DNA of 64,000 nucleotides from Histidinibacterium aquaticum (lineage in GTDB: Bacteria; Pseudomonadota; Alphaproteobacteria; Rhodobacterales; Rhodobacteraceae): assembly GCF_008710275.1 (NCBI RefSeq), contig NZ_VYQE01000002.1, positions 607,522 through 671,521 of the forward strand, read 5' to 3'. A program made the translations under genes and the position numbers. Position 1 is the stretch's first letter. The number at the start of each line of letters is the position of its first letter. This document shows positions 5,523 to 10,336 of this stretch, one piece after another. The notes under the pieces were generated by a model that saw only the letters and a program-made list of their open reading frames with translations, searched no databases and was not told the origin of the DNA.

Positions 5523-6830
5523 ATGATCCCCCGCTATGCCCGCCCCGAGATGACCGCGATCTGGGAGCCCGCCACCAAGTTCCGCATCTGGTTCGAGATC
5601 GAGGCCCATGCCTGCGACGCCATGGCGGACCTGGGCGTGATCCCGCGCGAGAACGCCGAGGCGGTCTGGAAGGCCAAGGACGTCGAGTTCGACGTGGCGC
5701 GGATCGACGAGATCGAGGCCGTCACCCGCCACGACGTCATCGCCTTTCTCACGCACCTCTCCGAGATCGTGGGCTCCGACGCCGCGCGCTTCGTGCACCA
5801 GGGAATGACCTCGTCCGACGTGCTCGACACCACGCTCAACATCCAGCTCTGCCGGGCCGCCGACATCCTGCTGGCGGACATGGATCGCCTGCTCGCGGCG
5901 CTGAAGGCGCGCGCGCTGGAGCACAAGGATACCGTCCGCATCGGCCGCTCCCACGGCATCCACGCCGAGCCCACAACCATGGGCCTGACCTTCGCGCGCT
6001 TCTACGCCGAGATGGACCGCAACCGGAACCGGCTGGAGAAGGCTCGCTGGGAGATCGCCACCGGCGCCATCTCCGGCGCGGTCGGCACCTTCGCCAACAT
6101 CGACCCGGCGGTCGAGGAGCACGTCTGCGAGAAGCTGGGCCTCCGGCCCGAGCCGATCAGCACGCAGGTCATCCCGCGCGACCGGCATGCGATGTTCTTC
6201 GCCACGCTCGGCGTGGTCGCCTCCTCGATCGAGAACGTCGCCACCGAGATCCGGCACATGCAGCGGACCGAGGTCCTGGAGGCCGAGGAGTTCTTCTCCG
6301 CCGGGCAGAAGGGTTCCAGCGCCATGCCGCACAAGCGCAACCCGGTGCTGACCGAGAACCTCACGGGCCTAGCCCGGCTCGTCCGCTCGGCCGTGACTCC
6401 AGCGCTGGAAAACGTGGCGCTCTGGCACGAGCGGGACATCTCGCACAGCTCTGTCGAGCGCGGCATCGGGCCCGACGCGACGATCCACCTCGATTTCGCG
6501 CTGAACCGCCTGGCGGGAGTGATCGAGAAGCTCGTCGTCTACCCGCAGCACATGCTCGACAACATGCACAAGTTCCGCGGGCTGGTGATGTCGCAGCGGG
6601 TTCTGCTCGCCCTCACACAGAAGGGAGTGAGCCGGGAGGATGCCTATTCCCTCGTCCAGCGGAACGCGATGAAGGTCTGGGAAGAAGGGCGCGACTTCAA
6701 GGAGGAGCTGCTCGCGGACGAGGACGTGCGCAAGGCTCTCTCCGTCGAGGAGATCGAGGAGAAGTTCGACCTCGGCTACCACACCAAGCACGTCGACACG
6801 ATCTTCGCCCGTGTCTTCGGCGAAAGCTGA
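5523..6830 (+). CDS. purB: Adenylosuccinate lyase
   Basis: PurB catalyses two steps: SAICAR to AICAR plus fumarate, and adenylosuccinate to AMP plus fumarate. The 435-residue protein carries the fumarase/ASL signature GSSAMPHKRNP (about 262-272), the HDVIAFLTHLSE and GMTSSDVLDT regions that line the active site, and GRSHGIHAEPTTMG with the catalytic histidine. Length is normal. The start MIPRYARPEM is the usual N-terminus, and AGGAGA lies 10 bases upstream. The gene is convergent with luxI and divergent from the CaCA gene, so it is probably monocistronic. Confidence 0.97.
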   Translation: MIPRYARPEMTAIWEPATKFRIWFEIEAHACDAMADLGVIPRENAEAVWKAKDVEFDVARIDEIEAVTRHDVIAFLTHLSEIVGSDAARFVHQGMTSSDVLDTTLNIQLCRAADILLADMDRLLAALKARALEHKDTVRIGRSHGIHAEPTTMGLTFARFYAEMDRNRNRLEKARWEIATGAISGAVGTFANIDPAVEEHVCEKLGLRPEPISTQVIPRDRHAMFFATLGVVASSIENVATEIRHMQRTEVLEAEEFFSAGQKGSSAMPHKRNPVLTENLTGLARLVRSAVTPALENVALWHERDISHSSVERGIGPDATIHLDFALNRLAGVIEKLVVYPQHMLDNMHKFRGLVMSQRVLLALTQKGVSREDAYSLVQRNAMKVWEEGRDFKEELLADEDVRKALSVEEIEEKFDLGYHTKHVDTIFARVFGES

Positions 6831-6865: not shown

Positions 6866-7561
6866 TCACTTCGACGGGCCGTGAAGGAGCGCGGGCTCCA
6901 TCCGGCGGGTCGGGCCGGCCCCGAACTTCTGAGCGGCCACGTCAGCCTTGGTTGCCGCTCTGGTCATTTCCCAGACCGGCTCGGCGGTCATCTTCATGAC
7001 GGCGTATTTGTGGCCGTCCTCGGAGTTCACGTAGGGCTGCGACATCAGTTCCGCGTCGTACCCGAGGGTCTTGAGGGCGCGGAGCAGCCAGAGGTTGGAC
7101 AGCGACATCAGTTCGGTCGCCCCCTCCTCCATCGCCATCTCCACGAGGCCCTGGCAGATCAGGCCCAGGCAATCGATCCGCGACTTCATGCCCTTGAGCT
7201 CCGGCGAGATCACCAGGCGGGTGCATTCCCACATGCCGCCTGTGACGATCTGCTGGTCGATCAGGTCCGACGGGATACCGCCGATCCGTCCGGACTGCGC
7301 GTCCCGCAGCATGTAGGTGGTCGCACCCCATTCGGCGTTCGTCGGAAGCGCGCGCGCACCGGCGAGAACCTGGCCCTCGTCCCCGATGACCAGTGAGTAC
7401 CTCGCCCTAGGGTTGTCGTACTGGTCCATCTCGACGGTGTCGTCGTGCGGGATGGTCCATCCCAGCATGTCGACGAAGAAACGCTTCCTGAGTGCGAGGT
7501 AGTCGTAGAAAGCCGTTCCGTGGACGTGGAGCTGGCTCAGTCCGAATGTAACATGGTGCAT
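6866..7561 (-). CDS. luxI: LuxI-family acyl-homoserine lactone synthase
   Basis: The 231-residue product has the residues that define LuxI enzymes: Arg25, Phe29 and Trp35 in LRKRFFVDMLGW, Asp46 and Asp49 in EMDQYD, Arg70 in AGARALPT, and Glu112/Arg115 in MWECTRLVI. These enzymes make acyl-homoserine lactone from S-adenosylmethionine and acyl-ACP or acyl-CoA. A C-terminal extension of about 20 residues (from about 211) goes beyond the usual length. The ATG at 7561 follows GGGGGA at good spacing. luxR lies upstream on the same strand, with a 196-base repeat-containing spacer. The acyl chain made cannot be read from sequence. Confidence 0.95.
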   Translation of the reverse strand: MHHVTFGLSQLHVHGTAFYDYLALRKRFFVDMLGWTIPHDDTVEMDQYDNPRARYSLVIGDEGQVLAGARALPTNAEWGATTYMLRDAQSGRIGGIPSDLIDQQIVTGGMWECTRLVISPELKGMKSRIDCLGLICQGLVEMAMEEGATELMSLSNLWLLRALKTLGYDAELMSQPYVNSEDGHKYAVMKMTAEPVWEMTRAATKADVAAQKFGAGPTRRMEPALLHGPSK

Positions 7562-7722: not shown

Positions 7723-7757
7723 GCAAAATCGTTGCCGGACGGTGTCTTAACTATGGC

Positions 7758-8366
7758 CTAAATGAGGCCGAACTCCTGCGCGCGGGTCACCGCCTGGGCG
7801 CTCGTCTGGGCCCCCAATTTGCGCTTGGCGTTCTTCAGCCGCTGCTTCACGGCACCCTCGCTGACCCCTAGATCGTGGGCAATCTGCTTCAGCCGCAACC
7901 CGTCCTTGACCATGGAGAGGGCTTCGAGCTCTGCCTGGGTGATGTTGGTGGGGGGCGCTTTTTCGTTATGCAGTCGGGTGACATAGGCCTTCAGCACCCG
8001 GATCTCCGCATCGTCGAACTCGCGGTCGGACCGGGCGAAGGTCCCGAAGGATCTCTGACCCTCGGGATTGTTGTCAAAAACACTCACTGCAAGCCCATAA
8101 CGCAGGCCGAAGCTCTTGGCCTGCAGCAGGATCCGCTGCGGATCCTCGATCTGGATCTCCGACCAGCGAATCGCTCCGGTCTGCGAGTACACCCATCGGA
8201 TGACCGGATCACTCAGCATGAACCTGTTCTGGGTGTAGTGATCGACCCACTCGCGCGGAAGGTTGTTGATTTCTTCCATCGGAAAAGCAAAACCAAGCCG
8301 TAGAGCGAGATAGTGCCCGACGGGTGCTACGACCTCGACATCTTCGGTGAGGATTCGCCTCTCCAC
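7758..8366 (-). CDS. luxR: LuxR-family quorum-sensing transcriptional regulator
   Basis: A 202-residue regulator with an N-terminal autoinducer-binding domain (about 12-130), including WVDHYTQNRFMLSDPVIRWV and TGAIRWSEI with the conserved Trp and Asp positions, and a C-terminal GerE-type helix-turn-helix (about 140-200: LTQAELEALSMV-type start, LKQIAHDLGVSEGAVKQRL). It should bind the LuxI product and control luxI just downstream. I chose the GTG at 8366 because TAAAGGG precedes it; a TTG at 8417 in frame would add 17 residues. It is divergent from the HTH-less paralogue at 8501. Confidence 0.92.
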   Translation of the reverse strand: MERRILTEDVEVVAPVGHYLALRLGFAFPMEEINNLPREWVDHYTQNRFMLSDPVIRWVYSQTGAIRWSEIQIEDPQRILLQAKSFGLRYGLAVSVFDNNPEGQRSFGTFARSDREFDDAEIRVLKAYVTRLHNEKAPPTNITQAELEALSMVKDGLRLKQIAHDLGVSEGAVKQRLKNAKRKLGAQTSAQAVTRAQEFGLI

Positions 8367-8500
8367 GTACAACCCTTTAGTGCAGGCCTGGTCCGGATTC
8401 GCTCGACCCCGCCTCAAACCACGCTAGTAACCGTTCGAGTGCCTTGTTTATTTTATATGGATGCGGGCGCAAGTTCCGATAGGCTTAAGCAGGAGGACAA

Positions 8501-9001
8501 ATGTCACTGGCAGCGGACATCGAACGGGATCTCGACAGACTCAGCGAGCTGAGCCCGTCCGGTTTTGCCATGGCATTTCACGTTCGGTTCACGACCCCCG
8601 CGTTCCTCTTTCAGACCTATTCCCGCAAGTGGCTCGACATCTACAGCCAGGAAGGCCTGGTGATGCGCGACCCGATCGTGAACTTCGGATTCGCGAAGAC
8701 AGGGGCGAAGCGCTGGTCCGAACTGACGGAGCCGGATCCCGATAACGTCATGGGACGGGCCAAGGATTTCGACATGAACTACGGCGTGGCCGTGGGCATC
8801 GACGAGGACGGCAGCCGGTCCCTCGCCGGTCTCGCCCGCCCTGACCGGGAGTTCACGGACGCCGAGATCGAGGAGATCGAGGAGCTCGTCCGGTCGCTAC
8901 ATCATGCGACACTCGACAACGGCAGCCTCGCCCCGGAAGCGGCCAAGCAGCTCAAGCTGATGTCGGTGCGCTTCACGCATCCCTCGCGGGAGAAGGATTG
9001 A
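8501..9001 (+). CDS. Autoinducer-binding-domain protein without DNA-binding domain (LuxR paralogue)
   Basis: The 166-residue product aligns with the ligand domain of the neighbouring LuxR: RDPIVNFGFAKTGAKRWSEL against SDPVIRWVYSQTGAIRWSEI, and GLARPDREFTDAEIEEIEELV against TFARSDREFDDAEIRVLKAYV. It ends about 30 residues after that domain (LAPEAAKQLKLMSVRF) with no GerE helix-turn-helix, and none is encoded in the short gap before the next gene, so this is not a simple frameshift. AGGAGGAC precedes the ATG. It is divergent from luxR. Plausible roles are ligand sequestration or formation of inactive LuxR heterodimers, as for truncated TraR-like proteins; this is inference. Confidence 0.85.
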   Translation: MSLAADIERDLDRLSELSPSGFAMAFHVRFTTPAFLFQTYSRKWLDIYSQEGLVMRDPIVNFGFAKTGAKRWSELTEPDPDNVMGRAKDFDMNYGVAVGIDEDGSRSLAGLARPDREFTDAEIEEIEELVRSLHHATLDNGSLAPEAAKQLKLMSVRFTHPSREKD

Positions 9002-9053: not shown

Positions 9054-9206
9054 ATGAAGACCGCCTTCACCGTTTTCGTCCTCGCCCTTTTGCCCGGCCT
9101 GGCTGCCGCCCAGTGCGGCGGTCATGACAGGCAGGCCATGAGCTGTGCCGAGGGCTCGATCTACGACGCCGAAACCGGAACCTGCGAGCCCGTCACCACG
9201 AGCTGA
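9054..9206 (+). CDS. Small exported cysteine-containing peptide
   Basis: A 50-residue ORF with a strong AAGGAGGA ribosome site. Residues 1-19 (MKTAFTVFVLALLPGLAAA) form a clear signal peptide with an Ala-X-Ala-type end, leaving a mature peptide of about 31 residues with cysteines at positions 21, 31 and 44, in CGGHDRQAMSC and AEGSIYDAETGTCEPV. The last segment recalls short chitin-binding-like cysteine motifs, but three cysteines is too few to claim that. It should act in the periplasm or outside the cell. I recall similar small proteins in other rhodobacteria; function is unknown. Confidence 0.7.
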   Translation: MKTAFTVFVLALLPGLAAAQCGGHDRQAMSCAEGSIYDAETGTCEPVTTS

Positions 9207-9280: not shown

Positions 9281-10336
9281 ATGCGATCGCGGGAGCTGCA
9301 GCAGACTGGCGGCGCCGGGCCCGACCCGGCTGGAGTGCGTCGCCGAAAGGCGGCCCTGATCGTTCAGATCGCCTCGGCCGAGGGGCACAAGCTGCCGCTC
9401 GACCGACTCTCCGACGAAGCGCAGATGTCGCTCGCCCGTGAAATCGCCCAGATGCCCGCCGTGGACCGCGAGACGCTCGAACAGGTCGCGGGCGAATTCA
9501 GTGCGGAGCTCGAGCGGATCGGTCTCACCGCCCCCTCCTCCATGGAAGAGGCGCTGACACTCCTCGACGGCCAGATCAGCCCCCGCGCCGCCGCGGCGCT
9601 CCGCGAAGAGCATGAGCGCATGACCGGCGCGGATCCCTGGCCCCGCGTCCTCGCCCTGCCGCCCGAGGATCTCAAGCCGATAATGGAAAGCGAGAGCACC
9701 GAGGTCTCCGCGGTCGTCCTCTCCAAGCTCCCTGTCGCCAAGGCGGCGGAGCTTCTCGGTCGCCTGCCCGGTGAGCTGGCCCGCCGCATCACCTACGCCG
9801 TCTCCCGGACGAAGGACGTCTCGCCCGGCGCCGTCTACCGCATCGGCCTCGCCCTGGCGGAGACCTATGGCCGGCCACCCTCGACGGCCTTCACCGAGAA
9901 GCCGGGTCGTCGTCTCGGGGCCATCCTGAACTCGAGCGGTGCACAGACCCGGGACGAGGTTCTCGACTCCCTAAGGTCCGAGGACCCCGAGTTTGCCGAG
10001 GAGGTGCGCAAGGCGATCTTCACCTTTCACGACCTGCCCCGGCGCCTGCGGAAAGAGGATCTGGCCAAGGTCATCCGGCTGGTCGACGGTGTCGATCTCA
10101 CCACCGCCCTCGCCGCCGGACTCGCGGAGGGAGGCGACGGCCAGATCGCCGCAGATTTCGTCCTCGACAGCATTTCGCAGCGCATGGCCGCGCAACTCCG
10201 GGACGAGATCGCCGAACGCGGTCGCGTGAAGAAATCCGAGGCGGAGACGGCCCAGACGAACATGATCACATCGATCCGGGAGGCGGCTGACATGGGAGAA
10301 ATCACGCTGGTTTCCGAGGACGAGGAGGAGGACTGA
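9281..10336 (+). CDS. fliG: Divergent FliG-like flagellar motor switch protein
   Basis: A 351-residue protein of FliG length. The C-terminal part is FliG-like: TFHDLPRRLRKEDLAKVIRLVDGVDLTTAL, then FVLDSISQRMAAQLRDEIAERG and a terminal SEAETAQTNMITSIREAADMGEITLV, close to the usual end of FliG. FliG couples the MS ring to the rotor and contacts stator MotA. The middle-domain EHPQ motif is replaced by ESTE, and the usual LDDR segment in the torque helix is not visible, so it is a diverged member. No other flagellar gene is in the window. Confidence 0.8.
   Translation: MRSRELQQTGGAGPDPAGVRRRKAALIVQIASAEGHKLPLDRLSDEAQMSLAREIAQMPAVDRETLEQVAGEFSAELERIGLTAPSSMEEALTLLDGQISPRAAAALREEHERMTGADPWPRVLALPPEDLKPIMESESTEVSAVVLSKLPVAKAAELLGRLPGELARRITYAVSRTKDVSPGAVYRIGLALAETYGRPPSTAFTEKPGRRLGAILNSSGAQTRDEVLDSLRSEDPEFAEEVRKAIFTFHDLPRRLRKEDLAKVIRLVDGVDLTTALAAGLAEGGDGQIAADFVLDSISQRMAAQLRDEIAERGRVKKSEAETAQTNMITSIREAADMGEITLVSEDEEED

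Follow-up and report, generated by a model that had tools for sequence, protein, structure and literature searches.

The gene at positions 8501-9001 of the window, the 64,000-nucleotide stretch of Histidinibacterium aquaticum DNA analysed here, encodes an autoinducer-binding protein without a helix-turn-helix (HTH); in related marine bacteria it has long accompanied the quorum-sensing switch next to it and is conserved there. By analogy, we consider it likely that this HTH-less gene is the orthologue of cerN of Cereibacter sphaeroides, and that its product would antagonise the adjacent LuxR via a mixed dimer in a manner dependent on acyl-homoserine lactone (AHL). The arrangement and both hypotheses of the earlier note, poisoning of LuxR by heterodimer formation and capture of the ligand, are largely in print already (PMC4338825; Hernandez-Valle et al. 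2024, PMC11655674; both papers are cited here from excerpts). Added here are the single origin of the gene, its breadth, the remnant of the lost domain and the finding of W57F in one of 45 adjacent LuxRs.

The HTH-less gene and its surroundings

The following features were located in the window.

5523-6830, + strand: purB (adenylosuccinate lyase; Lyase_1, ADSL_C), conserved flank on the luxI side by synteny
6866-7561, - strand: luxI, AHL synthase (PF00765, E 1.1e-14)
7758-8366, - strand, frame open to TTG 8417: adjacent full-length LuxR, the presumed CerM-like partner (Autoind_bind and GerE; alignment)
8367-8500, no strand: divergent promoter region separating luxR from the HTH-less gene; AGGAGG precedes the start of the latter (sequence; intergenic comparison)
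8501-9001, + strand: HTH-less, CerN-like autoinducer-binding protein of 166 aa (ORF, translation, Autoind_bind only, clade with CerN, predicted fold)
8933-8977, + strand: C-terminal helix, residues 145-159, a remnant comprising the linker and the first helix of the lost GerE domain (aligned to adjacent and non-cluster LuxRs; helical in the model)
9054-9206, + strand: secreted-looking peptide of 50 aa in the interval between the HTH-less gene and fliG (translation; CBM_14 just below the cut-off)
9281-10336, + strand: second fliG copy (FliG_N, FliG_M, FliG_C), conserved flank on the HTH-less side by synteny; the other copy lies at G000:C1:292005

The ORF begins with ATG, and the ribosome site AGGAGG lies immediately 5' of the start, in agreement with the earlier note, which had credited the gene with a good ribosome site of its own. 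Searched against Pfam at E up to 1, the product matched Autoind_bind over residues 32-133 (E 2.9e-14; PF03472 at 53.2 bits against a curated cut-off of 23), and the sole other match, SecDF, was insignificant. No GerE or HTH match was obtained in the protein with Pfam at E up to 1, with NCBIfam or with an HTH profile, and the same profile, run over ORFs of at least 60 aa between window positions 2001 and 14000, detected no HTH except that of the adjacent LuxR. Having the Autoind_bind domain without the HTH, the protein falls outside the LuxR solo transcription factors, which combine the two. The first ORF after the stop is 9054-9206, 52 bases on, so that the claim of a next gene at this distance with no HTH encoded in between was borne out.

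BLASTP aligned the HTH-less protein with the adjacent LuxR at 36% identity over 122 residues, which confirms the proposed homology to the ligand-binding half and the shared motifs. The placement divergent from luxR-luxI was found as described, with LuxR (Autoind_bind and GerE) and LuxI both on the - strand. For LuxR itself, GTG 8366 rather than TTG 8417 is probably the start, as judged from the ribosome site by eye and from the length of its relatives.

A confident ligand-domain fold was predicted for the HTH-less protein, with a mean pLDDT of 92.8. The 50 Foldseek matches listed are LuxR-type receptors, e.g. RhlR, QscR, SdiA, TraR and LasR; over these 50 the E values ranged from 7.5e-8 to 2.2e-5 and the TM scores by query, which are modest, from 0.49 to 0.67. 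A profile of the HTH-less family retrieved by sequence the same receptors that Foldseek retrieved by fold. All six AHL-pocket residues listed in the excerpts of PMC11655674 (W, Y, D, P, W, G) are present in the window protein, and over 45 HTH-less rows none of these positions is conserved in fewer than 44, with two single departures overall.

The earlier note had further stated that the product ends before any GerE HTH. This held insofar as no GerE or HTH match was found, but the last helix, residues 145-159, aligns with the linker and the first GerE helix. In ten aligned HTH-less proteins the tail likewise corresponds to the linker plus this first helix and breaks off at the point where a second helix would follow. 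As aligned and modelled, the protein thus terminates inside the DNA-binding domain and not ahead of GerE. The family members are 141-170 aa long (n=27, starts picked by a script rule), and the two shortest (141 and 145 aa) are without the tail.

The window genome comprises 3.9 Mb in 11 contigs and contains five Autoind_bind genes above the cut-off. Two LuxI genes, that of the window included, score above the cut-off and one weaker match falls below it. The second above-cut-off luxI adjoins the LuxR at C1:1029988; this LuxR and its relatives are called GtaR-like here, a label borrowed from the orthogroup of PMC11655674. Ten of the fetched loci, or seven with each repeated genome taken a single time, contain homologues of the 9054-9206 peptide. 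The second fliG lies on the HTH-less side in purB-fliG loci and its divergence resembles that of the HTH-less gene, the median identities over 20 loci being 0.49 for FliG and 0.48 for the HTH-less protein.

Occurrence and descent of the HTH-less family

We searched 195 genomes with the window protein by tblastn: the window's own, 119 others of its genus or family and 75 of other families. Matches were found in 54 genomes, none of them among the 75 of other families. DNA was retrieved for 114 table rows and the ORFs were scanned with ligand-domain, HTH and LuxI profiles, giving 27 ligand-domain ORFs without HTH, namely that of the window and 26 in 24 of the 119 genus-or-family genomes. A full-length LuxR adjoins the HTH-less gene in all 27. 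The divergent arrangement, which the earlier note had proposed to look for in related genomes, recurs in 26; the sole non-divergent case, on a plasmid of Qingshengfaniella alkalisoli (L055), has the gene on the same strand, downstream of luxI. The note's refuting case, a full-length LuxR at the position of the HTH-less gene, was absent from the 26 clusters fetched in relatives and from 24 in named genomes. luxI is present in 23 of the 27 clusters, and in the other four (L042, L043, L058, L059) the HTH-less gene and LuxR were found with no luxI within the fetched 12 kb. Flanks of purB and fliG on both sides, as in the window, were observed in 10 of the 27.

A scan of named GTDB genomes returned 24 loci, and in 24 of 24 the HTH-less gene adjoins a LuxR; three of these loci are the census genomes G001-G003 (Oceanicola granulosus, Roseisalinus antarcticus and Histidinibacterium lentulum), one metagenome copy (L101) is interrupted by a stop, and L103 is cut by a contig end. 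A profile search with 19 HTH-less proteins produced the same strong matches as tblastn (E < 1e-23); the weaker ones, among those listed, began at E 6.7e-13 and were open frames of at least 203 aa, with the HTH mostly unchecked. The ligand domain as such was matched by Pfam in 123 of the 195 genomes, and the rule that no HTH-less gene is an orphan covers the relatives of the window protein, not all domain-only LuxRs.

Conversely, three LuxRs that stand near the adjacent LuxRs in the quick tree described below have no HTH-less gene in the fetched 12 kb: L140 (in G028), L141 (in G088) and L142 (in G110), the last with an unsettled placement in the tree. At L141 (G088:C22) the LuxR stands alone next to fliG, without luxI, and at L058 (G110:C11) the HTH-less gene and LuxR lie between fliG and purB, also without luxI. 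At L049, L054 and L056 (C. sphaeroides and two others) the pair of HTH-less gene and LuxR is followed by a second LuxR, which in C. sphaeroides is CerR, and by a more distant LuxI, as if the cluster synthase had been exchanged. With respect to mobile elements, 50,697 phage records contained no match at E 1e-3, and 41 of 72,556 plasmid records matched, all below 60% identity and one of them the Q. alkalisoli plasmid; spread of the gene by plasmids is possible.

All 45 HTH-less rows of a quick tree, which comprised 150 ligand domains, formed one clade (SH-aLRT 97). A careful tree of 79 rows likewise united its 27 HTH-less rows (83/68, in 86% of 200 bootstrap trees), with moderate support; its bootstrap was incompletely settled. 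In both trees, with moderate support, this clade includes CerN of C. sphaeroides and excludes full-length LuxRs. A branch supported at 99/99 sets the HTH-less rows, 20 of 22 non-cluster LuxRs and three CerR-like rows, which sit on a long branch in the careful tree, against all 27 adjacent LuxRs. The adjacent LuxRs themselves are split and not one clade (7 changes in the quick tree, 3 in the careful one). Because full-length LuxRs entered the trees through their similarity to the window protein, distant ones are missing and sister relations are provisional.

The link of descent to the adjacent LuxR that the earlier note had drawn did not survive: the AU test rejected holding the window protein with its own LuxR (p-AU 1e-79; the pair was chosen after the first tree had been inspected, the note having already proposed the link). 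By the median, 39 of 45 HTH-less rows are nearer to non-cluster LuxRs, which are encoded elsewhere, than to their own neighbour. The window protein itself shows an identity in the tree alignment of 0.36 with the LuxR at C1:1029988 versus 0.31 with the adjacent LuxR. Taken together, the one clade, the 99/99 branch, the AU rejection and the closeness of most rows to non-cluster LuxRs argue that the HTH-less gene probably arose once, from a LuxR on the GtaR-like side and not by truncation of its neighbour. A recent truncation of the adjacent LuxR was discarded because of the AU test and the cut point common to the family. The protein also differs from the TrlR type, a near-copy of its partner LuxR, given 36% identity over 122 residues and the AU result.

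For the HTH-less gene we chose 16 pairs, of which 14 had unsaturated synonymous change and gave dN/dS values of 0.014-0.60; the values are rough, as many dS exceed 1. Since dN/dS was below 1 in all 14 computable pairs, they indicate purifying selection at the sequence level. With 27 such genes in the census forming one clade, these values bear out the earlier view of a maintained gene. That the gene is instead a decaying or recently truncated, functionless LuxR duplicate has, in our judgement, a probability close to nil. Such a reading could point to the faster evolution of the HTH-less gene relative to LuxR (the larger dN/dS of the two in 12 of 13 comparable pairs), to the metagenome copy split by a stop and to the two tailless copies, but the 14 constrained pairs, the old single clade, the rejected origin from the neighbour and the presence in 24 of 119 genomes besides the window's speak against it.

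Distances of the HTH-less protein and LuxR correlated at 0.785 over 37 loci, and none of 2000 permutations was as high. Over the 20 loci with all five genes, r was 0.745 with LuxR and 0.771 with FliG. A specific coevolution of the HTH-less protein with LuxR was therefore dropped: the neighbour FliG agrees as well, and the co-divergence is not specific to LuxR.

Comparison with CerN and CerM and the proposed function

Genome G055 was recognised as C. sphaeroides by a 6001-base plasmid piece that is 99.8-100% identical to seven Cereibacter records. Its locus reads HTH-less gene, divergent from LuxR, LuxR and LuxI, and the pocket letters of the first two products are WYDPWG and FYDPWG. The excerpts of PMC11655674 give for strain WS8N the row cerN, cerM, cerR, cerI with matching pocket letters, and from this row and these letters we identified the HTH-less gene and first LuxR of G055 as cerN and cerM. 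The window gene resembles cerN in encoding Autoind_bind without HTH, in the six pocket residues, in lying divergent from LuxR within a luxI cluster and in belonging to the same clade. Identity is 31% between the window protein and CerN and 41% between the window LuxR and CerM. The two loci differ in that C. sphaeroides has cerR between cerM and cerI while the window is without cerR, and in that purB and fliG, which flank the window cluster, were not found in the 12 kb fetched from C. sphaeroides. The window gene, too, is divergent from a full-length LuxR; as the adjacent LuxRs do not form one clade in either tree, the window LuxR is matched to CerM as a putative orthologue by its position. The same paper places CerM, CerN and GtaR in one orthogroup and, in the portion available, reports synteny in three other species compared as conserved for gtaR only.

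The window LuxR keeps W57, where CerM has F57. The authors of PMC11655674 suggest, in the excerpt, that this W57F change might matter. Phenylalanine at position 57 was found in one of 45 adjacent LuxRs, CerM of C. sphaeroides, so a mechanism dependent on it would not be general, and its rarity bears on the generality of the mechanism described for this CerM.

According to the excerpts of PMC11655674, CerM was pulled down with CerN solely when AHL was present. CerN with AHL weakened CerM-DNA binding both in vitro (EMSA, more free DNA) and in an E. coli reporter, and AHL alone also weakened the complexes in vitro, to a lesser degree. CerN alone had no reporter effect and acted only together with CerM and AHL. 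The reported targets in C. sphaeroides are CtrA and motility. This homologue thus binds and disarms its LuxR partner in an AHL-dependent manner. Heterodimer poisoning and ligand capture are both sensible hypotheses for the window protein. Given the place of the window gene in the CerN clade, AHL-dependent capture of the divergent LuxR would be the best-supported mechanism.

In this mechanism the HTH-less protein would bind the AHL synthesised by the LuxI of its cluster, and the loaded protein would then pair with the adjacent divergent LuxR through the dimer surface of the ligand domains. LuxR binds dyad operators, each occupied by two HTH domains. With one DNA-binding domain instead of two, the mixed dimer would leave the operators, and above a threshold of signal the LuxR regulon would be switched off, or genes repressed by LuxR would be released. 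For the window protein we infer the ligand, the partner, the sign of the effect and the targets.

Three other functions were weighed against this antagonism. The HTH-less protein might be an AHL sponge that buffers the signal and raises the quorum threshold while LuxR is left untouched, which we regard as unlikely. The intact pocket and the complete, predicted fold of the ligand domain would suit such a role, and it is one option suggested in the excerpts of PMC4338825, but a free sponge need not adjoin a LuxR, yet 27 of 27 do; four loci, moreover, are without luxI in the fetched 12 kb, and CerN was inert on the reporter unless CerM and AHL were present (PMC11655674, in part). It seems distinctly improbable that the protein acts on another LuxR, e.g. 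that at C1:1029988 with its own luxI. The greater identity with this LuxR, and of 39 of 45 rows with non-cluster LuxRs, fits that reading; the linkage to the neighbouring LuxR in all 27 clusters does not, and in the excerpts of PMC11655674 a non-motile cerN mutant regained swimming through loss of cerM, the sole luxR mutation to restore it.

A very low probability is given to a helper, i.e. a mixed dimer that stabilises or activates LuxR. The conserved pairing is compatible with either sign, whereas operators built for two HTH domains speak against a productive dimer with one. In PMC11655674, as far as its excerpts go, a cerI cerN double mutant had a smaller swimming halo and a possible stabilising role was raised, but CerN with AHL gave more free DNA in the EMSA.

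Returning to the antagonist, its role as AHL sensor is, by analogy, not exclusive, because AHL alone weakened the CerM-DNA complexes in vitro (PMC11655674, in part). More speculatively, and with considerable doubt, the AHL receptor may be split in a sizeable part of the family into two proteins of unlike descent, an HTH-less sensor that stems from another LuxR branch and a DNA-binding LuxR that needs no signal sensing of its own, so that the signal would be perceived by hetero-pairing. If true, the genes annotated as two "luxR" between purB and fliG would make up one receptor, and selection would keep this pair as the unit, not the LuxR-LuxI couple.

Published loci and upstream motifs

Among the papers listed by searches of the open-access literature, the HTH-less gene was found only in PMC11655674, PMC4338825 and PMC3824088, and no listed paper unites the observations of the three. 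The excerpts of Subramoni et al. 2015 (PMC4338825) describe a group 4 locus, fliG-[hp-abd]-luxR solo-asl, in Rubellimicrobium and Loktanella, with the same order and neighbours as in the window, the small hypothetical protein included; abd corresponds to the HTH-less gene. There the luxR is filed as a solo while the window keeps luxI, and function was unassayed. The authors suggest that ABD-only proteins may sequester ligands or bind LuxRs, citing TrlR. This Agrobacterium protein likewise has a LuxR-type ligand domain and lacks the DNA-binding part, and its dimers with a full LuxR are inactive (PMC11655674, PMC4338825, both in part); it is a near-copy of TraR, 88% identical, whereas the window protein is of old descent and shares about a third of its residues with its neighbour. 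The phrase "truncated LuxR" also occurs in the excerpt of PMC4288048 (Sphingomonadaceae).

Cude and Buchan 2013 (PMC3824088) described in the portion available a Roseobacter D topology with fliG opposite and upstream, luxRI, and purB downstream, and listed two luxR loci for each of six D/D1/D2 roseobacter genomes, including Oceanicola granulosus. In our analysis the cluster of O. granulosus (L036, L085) has one LuxR and one HTH-less gene, both of which are called luxR in that paper; a word search of the paper returned neither "truncated" nor "HTH". Two-luxR annotations at the fliG-purB locus can conceal a protein unable to bind DNA, and it may be necessary to include an antagonist term when quorum sensing is modelled in these bacteria. 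The one laboratory case, CerN/CerM, becomes a lineage-wide module, with the testable rule that the truncated receptor accompanies its LuxR neighbour in clusters with and without luxI alike.

Motifs were counted in the intergenic regions of 41 loci and upstream of luxI in 37. L080, L081, L085, L088, L091 and L097 (repeats or near-copies), as well as L100, L101 and L103, were left out of both counts, the non-divergent L055 also of the first, and loci without luxI of the second. A CerM-type operator in the divergent promoter was unsupported: AGACA occurred within 60 bases upstream of the HTH-less start in 2 of 41 loci versus a shuffle mean of 1.86.

TTAA-N7-TTAA is the CtrA consensus. Nine of the 37 loci (L039, L082, L086, L089, L092, L094, L095, L098 and L102), several of them from related species, have an exact copy in the 200 bases upstream of luxI, against a mean of 0.2 and a maximum of 2 in 100 shuffles. 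The spacing of 7 is specific, as other spacings from 4 to 11 give 0 or 1 locus, and with one mismatch allowed the count is 16 of 37 (shuffle mean 3.4, maximum 8). The window has a one-mismatch match only, at 7747-7761, overlapping the end of luxR. CtrA may thus drive luxI in several relatives, and because CerM and CerN act on ctrA in C. sphaeroides a loop between CtrA and a pair of the CerM/CerN type is possible. Predicted CtrA sites are mentioned for luxI2/R2 of Dinoroseobacter in the excerpt of PMC6473078.

Some loci also carry a leader motif, GCAACC-NN-AAAGCGAG, which precedes the HTH-less start by about 28 bases, for instance at L048:6078-6093 and L095:5969-5984; it is absent from the window. 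A genome-wide search for the strict form gave a single occurrence in G053, at the HTH-less gene, and none in 11 other genomes, their own copies of the locus included where present. A looser form, GCAACC-AAAGCGA near -28, was found in 10 of 41 loci versus 0 in 200 shuffles.
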